Positions 26,400-60,636 of a stretch of DNA of 64,000 nt are shown piece by piece. The stretch covers positions 1,052,501-1,116,500 of the forward strand of contig NZ_CP039451.1 of assembly GCF_004843725.1 (NCBI RefSeq). The letters run 5' to 3'. Each line of letters opens with the position of its first letter. Within the stretch, counting starts at the first letter, position 1. Source of the stretch: Psychroserpens sp. NJDZ02 (GTDB lineage Bacteria; Bacteroidota; Bacteroidia; Flavobacteriales; Flavobacteriaceae). The notes beneath the pieces were generated by a model. The model was not told the origin of the DNA. It saw nothing but the letters and a program-made list of their open reading frames with translations, and did no database searches. The position numbers and the translations under genes are program-made.

Positions 26400-28988
26400 A
26401 TGAAATACACCTATGTCATATTATTTTTTCTTGTCTTCGGAAGCGCGCTTTCTCAAGATCTAGAAGAGAACATCTATGTTACAACCGAAACATTTAACGC
26501 TAATAGGACGTCTAACACCTATGCCACTTTCTTAATAAACGAAGCTAACTTCAAATCTAACCTTAAAACTAAGGAGGAGTTCTTTGCCTATTTGTTTTTC
26601 TTAGTCAGTAAAGCCAGTTACCTAGACAACATTAATCAGCAAACAAACGCTATTAGTGTTTATGAAAAAGCTTTAAACCTTTATAATACAGAAAAAATAA
26701 ATACGTTTTTTAGATATGATATCACGGAATACTGTTTAAAACCATTAGGCGTGTTATATAACAAAATCGGTGATTACACGAATGCAGAAAACACAATTAA
26801 ACAATATATTTTTCTAGCCGAAAAACAAAAAAATAACACACACAGAATTAGTGGTGCCATTAATTTAGCCCAATTATATCATACCGTTGGAAAATTTGAT
26901 TCGTCACAAACTATAATAAAAAAAGGTTTAGACATTAAAGGTCTTACAAATGTTCAAAAACAAAAGCTGATTCAGATAAACGTAAACAATCAAATAGCTT
27001 TAAAACAAATAATTAGCAATAAAGATATTCCTACTAAAAACACAATAGATTCTTATCACACTAATACTTTAGAAACCGAATATAATCTAGCAGTTAATGC
27101 TCAAGATTTTGAAACCGCTTTAAAATCTTTAAGAAAAATAACGACTAAAGCTTATACTGAAAACACAATTGATGCGAGAGGCCTTGCTAAACTTCATGTT
27201 AAAAAGGCACAACTTCAATATAAATTAAATAACTCTAAAGCTAGTTTAATAGAACTAAAAGGAGCGCTAAAACTATTACTTCCAAATTTCAAAAATCAAG
27301 AACTCCCTAAAAAAGAAGACCTATATCCTGAAAATACATTTATCGCAATTTTCGATTTATTAGCAGACTTGCAACTTAATGACAACAATGCTTTAGCCTG
27401 CTACGATCTAAGTTTTTATGTCTCCAATCTATTAACAGAACAATTGACCTCTCAAGAAGCCAAACTATTACACCTAACTACTAATAGACAACGAAGTGAA
27501 TCTTGTATAAATTTACTTTTTGAAGCTTATCAAACCACTCAAGACTCCTCTAAAATTATTCAAGCTTTTACCTACGCTGAAAAAAACAAAGGTTCTATTT
27601 TAAAAGAAACCATTAACAAAAAATCGTTATTACTATTACATCCTAATGATAGTTTATTACTTAATGAGCAATCGCTATTACACAAACAAGAACGCTTAAC
27701 CAATAGTTTAATAAAAGCACAATACCAGAAAAATGCCAATCACATCAATACACTAAGCCAAGATTTAACAACTGTGAGTTCTGCTTTAAAACAAATAAAA
27801 ATTAAAATTAACAAAGCGTACCCTAACATTAACATTACGGATATATCAATTTTAAAGCTACAGGAAAAACTAAAAAAGGATAATGCTATTTTAGTAGAAT
27901 ATTTTTATGGTGATACTGCAGTATTTCAATTTACAATTTCAGAGAAAGCTGTCCATTTTATTAAGATTAAAAAAAACACTGCTTTTGACAACGCAATCAG
28001 TAACTACATTGACTACTTCAATACGTCTTCTGGAATAAACAACAACATTCAGGCATTTACAAAGGATGCTTCTAGACTGTATCAATTACTACAATTTAAT
28101 CACACTTCTGCATATAAAAATATAGTCGTTATCCCTGATGGCTTTATAAATTTTATTCCTTTTGAAAGTCTTTTATCGACAAGTACTTCTACAAAAAAAT
28201 ATTCAAACATGCCTTTTGTAGCCAAAAATCATATTTTAGCTTACAATACTAGTGCTTCTTTATATTTAAGTGCCTCTCCTTTTAAATATGACGCGTCCGT
28301 TTTAGGTGTTTTCCCAGTCTTTGACAATAGTAATTCAAAATTAATTCACTCTCTAAACGAAGCAGAAAGCATTGCAAAAGAAGTAGATGCTAAATTTTTG
28401 ATGTATGATAATGCAAAAAAAAGCGAGGCGTTATTTCAAGCTAAAAAATATGGCATATTACATTTATCGACGCATGCCAGCAGCGGCACCTTTTCTGTGC
28501 CAGCAAATATAGATTTTATAGACAAAAAACTGTTTTTAAATGAATTGTACAGCCTAAATCTGAATAATAAATTAGTCGTTTTAAGTGCTTGTGAAACGGG
28601 GATTGGAAAAATCCAAAAAGGAGAAGGCAGCATGAATCTTGCTAGAGGTTTCCAATATGCTGGTGTCGAAAATTTATTATTTTCTTTATGGAAAATTAAT
28701 GATTTATCGACCTCTCAATTGATGTCTTCATTTTATAAAAATTATAGTAAAACGCATTCTGCTTTTGTTGCTAATCATCTATCTAAGCTGGACTACTTAA
28801 ATAATCCTGAAATATCTAACATCAAAAAATCACCATATTACTGGAGCGCTTTCTCCTATTACGGAGATTTAACTCCAGAAAGCCCTTCTGACTATTTAAA
28901 ATATTTCCTTTTTACTATTATTGGCTTAAGTATTGCCTTACTTTTATGGTTTATAATACGCAGACATAATCATGGAAAACACGCTTAA
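26400..28988 (+). CDS. TPR-CHAT protein with C-terminal membrane anchor (caspase-like protease candidate)
   Basis: An 862-aa protein. It has an N-terminal signal peptide (ends GSALSQ), helical TPR-type repeats over about 40-450, a coiled-coil-prone stretch, and a CHAT domain from about 580 to 815. The latter holds ILHLSTHA with His692 and VVLSACETG with Cys731, the expected caspase-type dyad, plus the GEGSMNLARGFQYAGVENLLFSLW block. A TM helix (YFLFTIIGLSIALLLWFIIRR) closes the chain. By the usual signal rule the TPR and CHAT parts would be periplasmic. The 3' end overlaps the retropepsin-like gene by 17 bases, implying coupled translation. CHAT proteins are proteases triggered by partners in several systems. 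Substrate and trigger are unknown here. Confidence 0.88.
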   Translation: MKYTYVILFFLVFGSALSQDLEENIYVTTETFNANRTSNTYATFLINEANFKSNLKTKEEFFAYLFFLVSKASYLDNINQQTNAISVYEKALNLYNTEKINTFFRYDITEYCLKPLGVLYNKIGDYTNAENTIKQYIFLAEKQKNNTHRISGAINLAQLYHTVGKFDSSQTIIKKGLDIKGLTNVQKQKLIQINVNNQIALKQIISNKDIPTKNTIDSYHTNTLETEYNLAVNAQDFETALKSLRKITTKAYTENTIDARGLAKLHVKKAQLQYKLNNSKASLIELKGALKLLLPNFKNQELPKKEDLYPENTFIAIFDLLADLQLNDNNALACYDLSFYVSNLLTEQLTSQEAKLLHLTTNRQRSESCINLLFEAYQTTQDSSKIIQAFTYAEKNKGSILKETINKKSLLLLHPNDSLLLNEQSLLHKQERLTNSLIKAQYQKNANHINTLSQDLTTVSSALKQIKIKINKAYPNINITDISILKLQEKLKKDNAILVEYFYGDTAVFQFTISEKAVHFIKIKKNTAFDNAISNYIDYFNTSSGINNNIQAFTKDASRLYQLLQFNHTSAYKNIVVIPDGFINFIPFESLLSTSTSTKKYSNMPFVAKNHILAYNTSASLYLSASPFKYDASVLGVFPVFDNSNSKLIHSLNEAESIAKEVDAKFLMYDNAKKSEALFQAKKYGILHLSTHASSGTFSVPANIDFIDKKLFLNELYSLNLNNKLVVLSACETGIGKIQKGEGSMNLARGFQYAGVENLLFSLWKINDLSTSQLMSSFYKNYSKTHSAFVANHLSKLDYLNNPEISNIKKSPYYWSAFSYYGDLTPESPSDYLKYFLFTIIGLSIALLLWFIIRRHNHGKHA

Positions 28989-29424
28989 AGACTTTTTATT
29001 TACCAAGAACTATATAAGGGTTAAACTAAAATTAACTAAAACCAACCATTTTGAGATTAAAGCATCAATAAATGGCATAAAAGGCTTGTTTATTTTAGAT
29101 ACAGGCGCCTCTAATAGTTGCGTTGGTTTTGAAGGTTCTGAAAAATTTATATTAAAAAAAGTAAAAGATTCTAAAGTATTAGCTGCTGGTGCCGGTGCCA
29201 CGAACATGAAAACTCAAGTGTCAAAAAATAACACCTTAAAAATAGGGCGATTAAAAATCAGCAAATCAGCATTAGTCTTATTTGACTTAAGCCATGTTAA
29301 CACTGCATTAATCAATCATAATGCACAGCCTGTAGATGGTATTATTGGCGCTGATATTTTAAAAAAAGTAAAAGGTATTATTGATTACGATAAAAAATAT
29401 TTGTACTTAAAAAAATTAGACTAA
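28972..29424 (+). CDS. Retropepsin-like aspartic protease
   Basis: A 150-aa single-domain protein. LFILDTGASNSCV holds the catalytic Asp at residue 43 in the DTGAS motif, and DGIIGADILKKVKGIIDYDKKYLYL is the typical C-terminal block of bacterial retropepsin-like proteins (flap/dimer segment). There is no signal peptide, so it is probably cytoplasmic and, as in this family, active as a dimer. It overlaps the CHAT gene by 17 bases and precedes the response regulator by 60 bases. A cytoplasmic protease beside a periplasmic CHAT protein could serve two steps of one signalling path, which is inference. Confidence 0.88.
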   Translation: MENTLKDFLFTKNYIRVKLKLTKTNHFEIKASINGIKGLFILDTGASNSCVGFEGSEKFILKKVKDSKVLAAGAGATNMKTQVSKNNTLKIGRLKISKSALVLFDLSHVNTALINHNAQPVDGIIGADILKKVKGIIDYDKKYLYLKKLD

Positions 29425-29484: not shown

Positions 29485-30132
29485 ATGAGTACTTCAATTG
29501 TCATAGCAGATGATCACCCTTTAATGCTTAGAGGCCTTTCTGATTTTATCACCTCTAAAGGTTTTAATATAATTGGTAGTGCAGAAGACGGTCAAACCGC
29601 CTATAATCTAATTGTTAAACTTAAGCCAGATATTGCTCTATTGGATATTAGAATGCCAAAAATGACAGGATTAGAAGTTGCTGGTGCTTGTTTTAAAAAT
29701 GAATTAAACACCAAAATTGTCCTGATTACATTTGATAATGAAGAGCATTTATTTGACAAAGCAAAAGCATACAATGTTTATGGCTATCTTTTAAAAGAAT
29801 TTGCGGTAGAAGAAATTGAAACTTGTATTTCACACGTCATGAAGGGAGAAGCCTATTTTAGCGAAGAAATAGCGTCATACCTTAATGCTAAAGTTTCTTA
29901 TTCTAGTTCTAATTTATTAGAAATGCTAACACCAACAGAGGTTAAGGTTGTTAAATTTTTATCTGAAAAATTAAATTCAACCCAGATTGCTGAACTATTA
30001 ATGAGTTCTCCTAGAACAGTAGAAAAACACAGAAGTAATATTGTTAAAAAATTAGACTTAAAAAAATCGCATAACGAATTGACGCTTTGGGCAAATATGA
30101 ATAAAGAAGTCATAGCTGACATATCGCTATAA
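29485..30132 (+). CDS. NarL/LuxR-type response regulator
   Basis: A 215-aa protein. The receiver domain (1-~120) carries the acidic pair in ADDHPLMLRG and phospho-acceptor Asp54 (IALLDIRMPKMTG), then the switch Thr/Lys segment (ITFDNEEH, LLKEF). A LuxR-type HTH occupies about 148-210 (LTPTEVKVVKFLSEKLNSTQIAELLMSSPRTVEKHRSNIVKKL). No histidine kinase lies in the window, so it is an orphan, fed either by a distant kinase or by the CHAT/retropepsin genes. It sits immediately upstream of an array with six identical perfect inverted repeats, the form of site that NarL-family dimers bind. Confidence 0.93.
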   Translation: MSTSIVIADDHPLMLRGLSDFITSKGFNIIGSAEDGQTAYNLIVKLKPDIALLDIRMPKMTGLEVAGACFKNELNTKIVLITFDNEEHLFDKAKAYNVYGYLLKEFAVEEIETCISHVMKGEAYFSEEIASYLNAKVSYSSSNLLEMLTPTEVKVVKFLSEKLNSTQIAELLMSSPRTVEKHRSNIVKKLDLKKSHNELTLWANMNKEVIADISL

Positions 30133-30176
30133 ATTCACAGAACAAAACAACCGTAAACACTGTAATTACTAGTAAA

Positions 30177-30210
30177 CCCTTTAAAATAACATTCTATTTT
30201 AAAGGGTTTT
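30177..30210 (+). terminator. Intrinsic terminator after the response regulator gene
   Basis: CCCTTTAAAATA-ACATTC-TATTTTAAAGGG is a 12-bp perfect stem followed by TTTTATTT. It insulates the array from upstream transcription. Confidence 0.85.
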
Positions 30211-30285
30211 ATTTGATTTGTACTCAAATAAAAATACGTAGTTCTACGTATTTCATAGGTCATTTTTATCTTTTACCTTTACCAT

Positions 30286-30355
30286 GCTATTAATTAGTTC
30301 TTAGGGAGAATTAATAAGGCTCTAAAACGTTAACCTGTTTTGGAGCTTTTTTTTT
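30286..30355 (+). ncRNA. Predicted ~70-nt small RNA, array unit 1
   Basis: Proposed from geometry: palindrome 30232-30253, -7-like TACCTTTA 30274-30281, start about 5 bases later, two hairpins, T9 ending at 30355. This unit follows the response-regulator terminator and lacks the GGATTAGTCCC linker that precedes units 2-6. The palindrome overlaps the -33 zone, as for an activator-dependent promoter. Confidence 0.5.
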
Positions 30356-30426
30356 GGATTAGTCCCAAATAAAAATACGTAGTTCTACGTATTTCACAGG
30401 TCATTTTTATCTTTTACCTTTACCAT

Positions 30427-30496
30427 GCTATTAATTAGTTCTTAGGGGGAATTAATAAAGCTCTAAAACGTTAACCTGTTTTGGAGCTTTTTTTTT
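30427..30496 (+). ncRNA. Predicted ~70-nt small RNA, array unit 2
   Basis: Palindrome 30373-30394, TACCTTTA 30415-30422, terminator ending near 30496. Its first-hairpin loop has one base change (AGTTCTTAGGGGG). Confidence 0.5.
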
Positions 30497-30567
30497 GGAT
30501 TAGTCCCAAATAAAAATACGTAGTTCTACGTATTTCACAGGTCATTTATATCTTTTACCTTTACCAT

Positions 30568-30637
30568 GCTATTAATTAGTTCTTAGGGAGAATTAATAAG
30601 GCTCTAAAACGTTAACCTGTTTTGGAGCTTTTTTTTT
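30568..30637 (+). ncRNA. Predicted ~70-nt small RNA, array unit 3
   Basis: Palindrome 30514-30535, TACCTTTA 30556-30563, terminator ending near 30637. The spacer before the box changes from CATTTTTATC to CATTTATATC with no length change. Confidence 0.5.
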
Positions 30638-30708
30638 GGATTAGCCCCAAATAAAAATACGTAGTTCTACGTATTTCACAGGTCATTTATATCTTTTACC
30701 TTTACCAT

Positions 30709-30780
30709 GCTATTAATTAGTTCTTAGGGAGAATTAATAAGGCTCTAAAACGTTAACCTGTTTTGGAGCTTTTTTTTTTT
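30709..30780 (+). ncRNA. Predicted ~72-nt small RNA, array unit 4
   Basis: Palindrome 30655-30676, TACCTTTA 30697-30704, terminator with a longer T-tract (12 T) ending at 30780, which accounts for the 143-bp step to unit 5. Confidence 0.5.
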
Positions 30781-30851
30781 GGATTAGTCCCAAATAAAAA
30801 TACGTAGTTCTACGTATTTCACAGGTCGTTTATATCATATACCTTTACCCT

Positions 30852-30920
30852 GCTATTAATTAGTTCTTAGGGAGAATTAATAAAGCTCTAAAACGTTAAC
30901 CTGTTTTGGAGCTTTTTTTT
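30852..30920 (+). ncRNA. Predicted ~69-nt small RNA, array unit 5
   Basis: Palindrome 30798-30819, TACCTTTA 30840-30847 in the context TCATATACCTTTACC, terminator ending near 30920 with 8 T. Confidence 0.5.
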
Positions 30921-30991
30921 GGATTAGTCCCAAATAAAAATACGTAGTTCTACGTATTTCACAGGTCGTATATATCATATACCTTTACCAT

Positions 30992-31060
30992 GCTATTAAT
31001 TAGTTCTTAGGGAGAATTATTTAAGAAGACTCTGCACTATAATGGTGCAGAGTTTTATTT
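30992..31060 (+). ncRNA. Predicted ~69-nt small RNA or leader, array unit 6 (divergent 3' end)
   Basis: Palindrome 30938-30959 and TACCTTTA 30980-30987 are as in the other units, but homology stops near 31019. The 3' part has a different terminator, ACTCTGCAC and GTGCAGAGT around TATAATG at 31029-31053, then TTTTATTT. The transcript could be a sixth small RNA or an attenuated leader for the 36-aa ORF that starts 13 bases later. Confidence 0.45.
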
Positions 31061-31072
31061 AAAATTACAATC

Positions 31073-31183
31073 ATGGATTTAGAAAAAAGAACAAGAGAAC
31101 AAAACAAGATAATTATTGCGTGTCTTGCTATATTAACTTTACTTGTCATTGCTTTTAATATTATCATATTTTTTGACACATAG
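31073..31183 (+). CDS. 36-aa single-TM small membrane protein
   Basis: An ATG at 31073 opens a 37-codon frame: polar start MDLEKRTREQNK, then one hydrophobic helix (IIIACLAILTLLVIAFNIIIFF) and a DT end. It lies 13 bases after the unit-6 terminator and just before a bidirectional terminator. The charge pattern suggests N-terminus in the cytoplasm. It has no recognised family. That it is translated is inferred from composition and from a clean position between two terminators. Confidence 0.5.
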   Translation: MDLEKRTREQNKIIIACLAILTLLVIAFNIIIFFDT

Positions 31184-31190
31184 ACACAAA

Positions 31191-31219
31191 AAAAGGGAGC
31201 AACTATGTTGCTCCCTTTT
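31191..31219. terminator. Bidirectional intrinsic terminator
   Basis: AAAAGGGAGCAAC-TAT-GTTGCTCCCTTTT is a 13-bp perfect stem with A-tract and T-tract. It serves the 36-aa ORF on the plus strand and sucB on the minus strand. Confidence 0.9.
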
Positions 31220-31238
31220 AATATAATATAAACGCTTA

Positions 31239-32450
31239 TTAAAGCTCTAAAGCTTTTTTAATATCATTACCCATAAGTAACTCTATTGGATTCTCTAATG
31301 CCTCTTTAATTGCGACTAAAAAGCCTACACTTTCTTTTCCATCAATTATTCTGTGATCATAAGATAATGCAACATACATCATTGGATGAATTTCTACTTT
31401 TCCATCTACTGCTATTGGTCGTTCAATAATATTATGCATTCCTAAAATACCACTTTGAGGTGGATTTATAATTGGAGTAGATAACATACTACCAAAGACA
31501 CCTCCATTTGTAATTGTAAAGGTACCTCCTGTCATTTCATCTACAGTGATTTGACCATCTCTAGCTCTAAGTGCTAATCTTTTTACTTCTGACTCGACAC
31601 CTCTAAAAGTTAAGTTTTCAGCATTTCTAATTACTGGTACCATTAATCCCTTTGGTCCAGAAACTGCGATACTGATATCGACAAAGTTAAATGTTTTCAT
31701 TTCCTTACCATCTATCATAGAATTAACAGCAGGATACATTTGTAACGCACGCACAACTGCTAACGAGAAAAATGACATAAACCCTAAACCTACACCATGT
31801 TTAGACTTAAAAGTCTCCTTATATTCTTTACGTAGTGCAAAAACAGGAGACATATTTACTTCGTTAAAAGTAGTCAACATAGCTGTGGTATTTTTAGCCT
31901 CTACTAAACGCTCTGCTACTTTACGACGTAACATTGACATTTTAGAATTAGAAGAACTGCGATCACCACCTGTTGGTGTTCCCATAGATGGTACTGCATT
32001 TACGGCATCATCTTTAGTAACGCGACCATCTTTTCCTGTTCCAGAAATAGTACTAGTATCCATTCCTTTTTCTGCTAATATTTTTTTAGCTGCAGGACTT
32101 GCTGTTCCTGAGGCATAAGTATCTGCTTTTGGTGCTTCTACTTTTGTTTCAGGTTTTGGAGCTTCTTCTACTTTTTCTTCTTCTTTTGCAGACGTGTCTC
32201 CATCGGGAGCTTTTGCACTAGTGTCTATTAAACATACAACTTGTCCAACTGCTACTGCATCACCTTCTTCTGCTTTAAGCGTAATAGTACCACTAGCTTC
32301 TGCTGGTAATTCTAAAGTTGCTTTATCACTATCAACCTCAGCTATTGGTTGGTCTTTTTCTACATAATCACCATCTTGAACTAACCATTCTGCTATTTCA
32401 ACTTCCGTGATAGATTCGCCTGGAGAAGGCACTTTCATTTCTAAAATCAT
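31239..32450 (-). CDS. sucB: 2-oxoglutarate dehydrogenase E2 (dihydrolipoyl succinyltransferase)
   Basis: A 403-aa E2 component of the TCA-cycle 2-oxoglutarate dehydrogenase. One lipoyl domain carries the modified Lys in [13 protein letters not shown] (residue ~43). An Ala/Pro/Lys/Glu linker follows, then the peripheral subunit-binding domain ([15 protein letters not shown]...[10 protein letters not shown]) and the catalytic domain with [15 protein letters not shown]. It lies 35 bases after a small secreted-protein gene that separates it from sucA, all on the minus strand. Confidence 0.95.
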
Positions 32451-60507: not shown

Positions 60508-60614
60508 TGGGCATTCCCCTTTTCCGCAAAAAGCTACAAAGCGTCGCGCTATCCACTGTATCTTTTTGTTTTTTTTAGTAAAACAAAAAGGATGTCGTTA
60601 CTATCCCTAATGCA
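60508..60614. repeat. Interspersed intergenic repeat, copy 2
   Basis: It shares ordered blocks with 1700-1852: TGGGCATTCCCCTTTTCCGC, CGTCGCG, CTGTATCTTTTTG, AACAAAAAGGATGTC and CTAATGCA. The ATCTTTTTG/CAAAAAGGAT parts can pair into a hairpin. It lies between convergent genes, a usual place for such elements. Confidence 0.6.
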
Positions 60615-60636
60615 TTAAACGACAAACAACAATCTA

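Follow-up and report, generated by a model that had tools for sequence, protein, structure and literature searches.

Predicted regulator-activated tandem small-RNA genes beside a LuxR-type response regulator gene in Psychroserpens

The genome of Psychroserpens sp. NJDZ02 carries, between the gene of a REC-LuxR response regulator and a convergent odhB gene, an array of six near-identical units of ~141 bp apiece (30225 to about 31061 of the window, the whole 64,000-nucleotide stretch analysed), which we read as tandem sRNA genes predicted to be activated by that regulator, with a probability of roughly 0.8. The comparative evidence for regulator-activated sRNA genes is strong: unit, spacing, terminator stem, and LuxR-type neighbour are kept across genera, which favours the original prediction of six regulated sRNA genes in tandem. 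That prediction needs some correction: conservation of the putative RNA peaks at its 5' end, the loop taken to be open is mostly paired in the predicted folds, the response regulator encoded next to the array is the probable activator, and a small membrane-protein ORF follows unit 6. To our knowledge, regulatory RNA in the Flavobacteriia is little charted, and the array offers a compact, widely kept RNA family whose operator points to a regulator and from which a strong regulator-dependent signal would be expected.

Anatomy of the six units and their neighbours

Tandem Repeats Finder delimited the repeat at 30225–31019 (period 141, 5.6 copies, 96% matches, score 1460), in agreement with the six tandem units described earlier. 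Each unit runs from the operator TACGTAGTTCTACGTA through a Flavobacteriia-type -7 box to a predicted RNA of ~70 nt starting GCUAUUAAU and an intrinsic terminator (Table 1). The 16-bp operator is identical in all six units, and its arms reach 10 bp when the flanking AAA/TTT is included. The TACCTTTA box lies 23 nt past the operator in each unit, and the distance of 38.5 bp from operator centre to last box base, previously claimed to be invariant despite the variable bases in between, is found in 6/6 units. The operator centre lies about 43 bp upstream of the predicted starts, which is the usual position of a class II activator. These start sites were placed by applying the position of the Flavobacterium psychrophilum TAnnTTTG box, reported as -12 to -5 (PMC9723704), and the 5' ends of the original prediction are consistent with it. 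A promoter scan returned five sigma-70-type promoters, with 4.9 expected.

Units 1–5 have in common a terminator hairpin of 14 pairs in the terminator scan. The shared terminator had been foreseen and was recovered, but the T runs, given earlier as 8–12, were counted as 9, 9, 9, 11, and 8. Between 30130 and 31230 the scan returned seven terminator-like sites, including the five in units 1–5, where shuffled sequence gave 0.7 on average. A separate GACTCTGCAC..GTGCAGAGTTTT hairpin, missing from the scan output, is present in unit 6 together with the weakest T run, and unit 2 shows the single-base difference already noticed in its GGGAG stretch (GGGGG for GGGAG). A CRISPR-like or spacer array was rejected, the units being whole copies and variable spacers being absent. 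A leaderless mini-ORF, six codons long in the window and beginning with an ATG at the predicted transcription start, was rejected on reading, without a count; in some relatives its start triplet is AAG, TCG, GGG, or CTG, and the stop is gone in the second unit type.

The wider neighbourhood is partly conserved. Among the matches listed from other genomes, the aspartyl protease gene lies upstream of 57 of the 58 TACGTA-type cores with 1.8 kb upstream, and odhB lies downstream of 55/70 such cores that are followed by 1.5 kb or more of sequence. The idea that the CHAT gene belongs to every such locus was rejected, as it was detected in 15 of the 46 TACGTA-type loci that, among the matches listed, reach 1.5 kb or more ahead of the protease. 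The TPR-CHAT and protease genes overlap in the window, and the two ends of the TPR-CHAT protein look hydrophobic by eye. A kinase was absent among the six proteins Pfam-scanned between 23181 and 32450.

Table 1. Features at and around the array (positions in the window).
Feature	Position	Strand	Basis
TPR-CHAT (caspase-like) protein	26400..28988	+	Pfam CHAT 5.2e-38
Retropepsin-like aspartyl protease, conserved neighbour	28972..29424	+	Pfam Asp_protease_2 2.1e-10
REC-LuxR (NarL type) response regulator, likely activator	29485..30132	+	Pfam Response_reg 9.4e-23, GerE 6.4e-9
Terminator-like hairpin between regulator gene and array	30174..30209	+	terminator scan
Unit 1 operator and -7 box	30235-30250 and 30274-30281	+	sequence
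Unit 1 predicted sRNA, 70 nt, with terminator, 9 T	30286..30355	+	fold, covariance model, terminator scan
Unit 2 operator and -7 box	30376..30422	+	sequence
Unit 2 predicted sRNA, GGGGG variant	30427..30496	+	covariance model, terminator scan
Unit 3 operator and -7 box	30517..30563	+	sequence
Unit 3 predicted sRNA	30568..30637	+	covariance model, terminator scan
Unit 4 operator and -7 box	30658..30704	+	sequence
Unit 4 predicted sRNA, 11 T	30709..30780	+	covariance model, terminator scan
Unit 5 operator and -7 box	30801..30847	+	sequence
Unit 5 predicted sRNA, 8 T	30852..30920	+	covariance model, terminator scan
Unit 6 operator and -7 box	30941..30987	+	sequence
Unit 6 predicted sRNA or microprotein leader; different terminator, weaker T run	30992..31061	+	fold, covariance model
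36-aa ORF, one hydrophobic span, putative membrane microprotein	31073..31183	+	sequence
Terminator-like hairpin between array side and odhB	31191..31219	-	terminator scan
odhB (2-oxoacid dehydrogenase E2), frequent convergent neighbour	31239..32450	-	Pfam 2-oxoacid_dh 4.1e-77

Operator classes, regulators, and distribution of the RNA

An exact 22-mer core of the RNA was matched by 117 or more stretches from public genomes (some contigs contributing two), with Algibacter, Formosa, Olleya, Tamlana, and Hyunsoonleella among the genera in the matches listed. The 117 loci analysed hold 122 exact cores, from which two with less than 60 nt upstream were dropped. Among these listed matches, 88 of the 120 cores follow a TACGTA-N4-TACGTA-like operator (class cut, at least 9/12 base matches) whose centre lies 44 nt before CTATT in 87 cases and 45 nt in one, and 28 follow TACTCA-N3-TGAGTA or a near variant, at 43.5 nt in 28/28. 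The remaining cores comprise one with another palindrome and three without any at that place. When all 146 covariance-model hits with enough upstream sequence are considered, weak hits counted, the TACGTA type is in register in 98 and one base off in 8, the TGAGTA type accompanies 20, other palindromes 3, and no operator is found in 17, of which 12 are hits at E ≥ 6e-4 and 5 at E of about 5e-5 or better.

The two operator classes go with different regulators. A close homologue of the REC-LuxR regulator (phmmer E < 1e-10, within 900 nt upstream) precedes 72/74 TACGTA-type cores with at least 900 nt upstream among the matches listed. The two exceptions are L077 and L147, and L077, which has a PAS-LuxR-type protein downstream of the core, carries a TACCCA-type operator and falls in this class because the cut is 9/12. 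The 24 TGAGTA-type cores with at least 900 nt upstream among the matches listed all follow a PAS-LuxR protein, and none follows a homologue of the regulator (E < 1e-40). Pfam GerE was found in 6/6 proteins tested, from L069, L111, L127, L118, L120, and L077, and PAS_3 in five of them, the exception being the cut-off L120. Thus, one RNA appears to be under the control of several LuxR-type regulators that each use a separate operator. Further operators are TACCCA/TGGGTA (L093) and TACCAA/TTGGTA (L070), at loci where phmmer found genes resembling response regulators and where kinase-like genes were noticed by eye. As the regulator and operator are swapped around an unchanged RNA, which is unusual, the RNA rather than the sensor is suggested to be the conserved function. 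Unit anatomy, spacing, and the predicted pairing of regulator and operator all emerge from this comparison of genomes. As a separate observation, TGAGTA-type units of the PAS-LuxR loci L070, L093, and L104 lie near murF- and gldJ-like genes (by eye), a different, envelope-related neighbourhood.

Co-occurrence across whole genomes points in the same direction. The covariance search in other Flavobacteriaceae, named as a check in the original prediction, found the RNA in 97/299 genomes and 67/203 genera. Tallied over the 299 genomes, 89 have both RNA and regulator, 8 the RNA only, 42 the regulator only, and 160 neither, so that a regulator match at E ≤ 1e-50 is present in 89/97 RNA-positive vs. 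42/202 RNA-negative genomes; the 8 and the 42, like the 5 better model hits with no operator in register, count against the scheme. At a regulator score of at least 235 bits, 60 of 62 genomes have the RNA. A phylum-wide sample gave 7 positive genomes out of 296, six of them in the Flavobacteriaceae including the genome studied here and one, a weak match, outside; both large searches used stricter filters with which weak matches are lost. In its own genome the model finds the six array copies and no others, compared with nine (G310) and four (G162) model hits in two genomes of the same genus.

The exact core had no matches in viral contigs, and the unit 1 RNA had none in plasmid records. The array was unmatched in Rfam 15 at gathering score, and a literature search judged by titles and abstract openings found no description of the RNA or operator. 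The Rfam matches in the window are a tRNA and, separate from the array, a Flavo-1 RNA (RF01705) at 60538-60615 on the minus strand (52.6 bits).

Folding, conservation, and possible mode of action

The predicted RNA has the 5' sequence GCUAUUAAUUAG and contains the GCUAUUAAUUAGUUC region. Minimum-energy folds gave a 5' hairpin and a terminator hairpin in 6/6 examples, half of them taken from the window and half from relatives, with z-scores of -3.8 to -5.9 vs. 200 shuffles in all six. The open 13-base loop proposed earlier is not seen in these folds, as most of it is paired into the hairpin, leaving a 3-nt tip; across examples, the tip of the 5' hairpin has three or four bases. Comparison also backs the predicted terminator structure, with compensatory changes at 11/11 pairs of the stem in an alignment of 50 sequences that were chosen by eye (4/6 window units and 46/111 listed sequences), omitting coding chance matches and near-duplicates. 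The 5' hairpin is less well supported: 85.6% of cells are paired vs. 42–65% for slid versions, but both-side changes occur at 2/9 pairs, and 210/500 shuffles reach as many. In 40 model hits without the exact core (at least 45 bits), positions +1 to +9 are conserved at 95–100%, a value somewhat inflated because the model sequences were chosen partly by the exact core. Conservation in the same hits is 47% at +10 and 82–85% at +11 to +14, while most later positions lie around 50%.

From these features, we infer that the units are transcribed and that the regulator is phosphorylated and binds the DNA directly. The phosphorylated REC-LuxR regulator would bind each 16-bp inverted repeat, ~43 bp before the start, and recruit RNA polymerase to a promoter with the Flavobacteriia -7 box (class II activation); if this pairing of regulator and operator is true, it would bind TACGTAGTTCTACGTA, not TACTCAATTTGAGTA. 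Each unit would yield an RNA of ~70 nt in which the 5' end GCUAUUA stays unpaired and is followed by a hairpin and the intrinsic terminator, and more copies would give a higher RNA output. Transcription of unit 6 can probably read through into the membrane microprotein. The RNA would most likely act in trans, its 5' end base-pairing with mRNAs, which is the weakest step of the scheme and to which we give slightly better than even odds. This guess draws on 5'-end conservation and on the class of RNA concerned, FopS being an example from the same phylum (PMC11697453).

Complements of the 5' seed were not enriched in 507 start regions covering part of the genome, with 0 occurrences of ATTAATAGC vs. 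0.6 expected, and 12-nt duplex energies in the same 507 regions were shuffle-like (rank 32 of 60). Outside the arrays of three genomes, the exact 11-base TAATTAATAGC falls in the start regions of five genes, none common between species; most of its sites are inside genes, antisense to genes, or far from starts. It is commoner there than its reversal (17 vs. 8, 10 vs. 3, and 17 vs. 5), which is an unfair control because the reversal contains CG. Pairing targets thus not having been found in two target tests, the RNAs might instead use the hairpin or the 5' end to sequester an RNA-binding protein, in the style of CsrB/RsmY and CsrA, the copies setting the level. A LuxR-type regulator with a multi-copy RNA resembles GacA and RsmY/Z, and AGGGA occurs in the hairpin tip. 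Still, we regard titration as unlikely, since CsrA (PF02599) had no matches in the genome, where 3/14 control genomes were positive, each unit has one GGGA at the 3-nt tip that is lost in unit 2 (AGGGG) and in the second unit type, and conservation is strongest at the 5' end rather than at the tip. Membership of the Csr/Rsm system itself was rejected, CsrA being absent along with repeated GGA motifs in exposed loops.

In another reading, the units would mainly be 5' leaders or attenuators of the microprotein, and the upstream copies decayed or dosage copies of that leader. A small hydrophobic ORF (25–60 aa, with 12 or more hydrophobic residues in a run of 18) lies next, between core and odhB, in 35 of the 39 TACGTA-type loci with odhB in view among the matches listed, inner units of L057 and L065 also precede such an ORF (by eye), and the T run is weakest in unit 6. 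However, units 1–5 each end in a terminator-like hairpin with 8–11 T, and the microprotein ORF is not seen in them, while in TGAGTA-type loci, which have the same RNA, no comparable microprotein was recognised by eye, so that a leader function for the array as a whole seems improbable. It is most improbable that the repeats are DNA decoys for the regulator or a selfish repeat spread by unequal crossing-over, with no RNA function: near-identical units and the varying copy number in the genus (9, 4, and 6) point to ongoing amplification, but conservation extends past the operator to the promoter box, start region, hairpin, and terminator, and loci with just one or two units persist in different genera.

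Known multi-copy RNAs and operator copies elsewhere in the genome

Read as regulator-activated sRNA genes, the units can be compared with several known systems. LisR is a regulator of the OmpR family. In Listeria, LhrC1-5 are similar sRNAs with their own promoters, all LisR-dependent, whose multiplicity is suggested by the authors to serve sensitivity (PMC4132741). Judged by sequence, the array likewise holds several similar RNA genes, each with a promoter and a terminator, and, as in the LhrC and csRNA kind, a common operator at a fixed distance is tied to one regulator, here by comparison of genomes. LhrC differs in belonging to another phylum and in its type of regulator. Its CU-rich motifs lie in loops and in one single-stranded stretch (PMC4132741), vs. 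the conserved 5' end here. The csRNAs of Streptococcus are reported to be five highly similar RNAs under CiaR (PMC4507080). Similar RNAs under one response regulator are what the array is predicted to share with them. The csRNAs are a different RNA with a different operator and are not known to form an array beside the regulator.

HetF is the protein from which the CHAT domain takes its name. In Nostoc, the ~60-nt RNA NsiR1 is present in 12 tandem copies beside hetF, with individual promoters sharing one regulatory motif (PMC9045159). The likeness is a tandem array with a CHAT gene nearby. The NsiR1 array precedes hetF, and one of its copies is antisense to the hetF 5' UTR (PMC9045159), whereas here two genes lie between the CHAT gene and the array, on the same strand. 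The NsiR1 model (RF02399) scored 19–20 bits on 5/6 units (gathering score 39, E 0.3–0.55), and these sub-threshold matches are probably due to chance.

Closer to the host of the array in taxonomy, the FopS RNAs of Bacteroides are paralogous RNAs of 65–70 nt with a conserved 5' region as seed (PMC11697453). Compared by description, they share with the array RNA the phylum, a similar length, and a conserved 5' region, and differ in their scattered loci and canonical promoters (PMC11697453). Rfp18 of F. psychrophilum, from the same bacterial family, is an sRNA with a deletion phenotype and a pairing site in its third stem-loop (PMC9723704); the array RNA, compared with it by description, folds into two hairpins. 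With FopS and Rfp18 compared by description, the apparent novelty here lies in the RNA family and in the exchange of regulator and operator around it.

The operator extends beyond the array. It has 28 exact copies genome-wide, 22 of them outside the array, and the pattern of operator, spacing, and box occurs 29 times in this genome, 3 to 37 times in each of nine genomes of the same genus (their own arrays counted), and once in each of five other genomes, while the backward pattern has no occurrence in all 40 genomes. In 20 fetched stretches of the genome, 40 of 41 outside copies, with up to 3 mismatches allowed, are followed by a TAnnTT box at the array distance; the copies, largely related, are not independent. 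The first codons of the operator-linked proteins lie 78–350 nt past the box. When 30 such proteins, a subset of those found, were compared in three batches with PADLOC models, six matched at E < 1e-20, one marginally (L230, Csx27, 6.6e-4), and 23 had no match, a rate that is inflated because one batch was picked partly for defence-like protein starts. The matches are RT_UG5 (L012:3-1790, minus strand, same genome), Drt3a (L242), PDC-S06 (L234), PDC-S15 (L235), NsnA/PD-T4-2 with GmrSD_N (L227), and an ATPase-Toprim protein (L247). Ten control genes of our own choice from the window gave no match at E < 1e-20 and one weak match to ZorA.

The operator link to anti-phage genes is a lead only; if true, together with the link to cassette genes, it would supply a candidate regulator for those systems. 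In a wider and more tentative picture, which we consider possible rather than probable, one sRNA would be the common output of several LuxR-type sensors (REC-LuxR beside a protease, PAS-LuxR, perhaps kinase–regulator pairs), each with its own copy and an operator at the same distance. In its own genus, the same regulator would also have acquired control of dozens of cassette-like genes and of anti-phage genes (DRT reverse transcriptases, GmrSD-like, PDC-S06, PDC-S15), one protease-linked locus switching on sRNAs and defences together.

Most of the outside operator copies precede cassette-like genes in same-strand clusters, with a leader often ending in AACGAGTT or AACTAGTT. The cassette-like elements of this genome (L009-L024, L026, L027) are made up of operator, -7 box, a leader often ending in AAC[GT]AGTT, and unrelated genes; in this they are similar to gene cassettes of an integron-like or repeat-borne type that have a common promoter.
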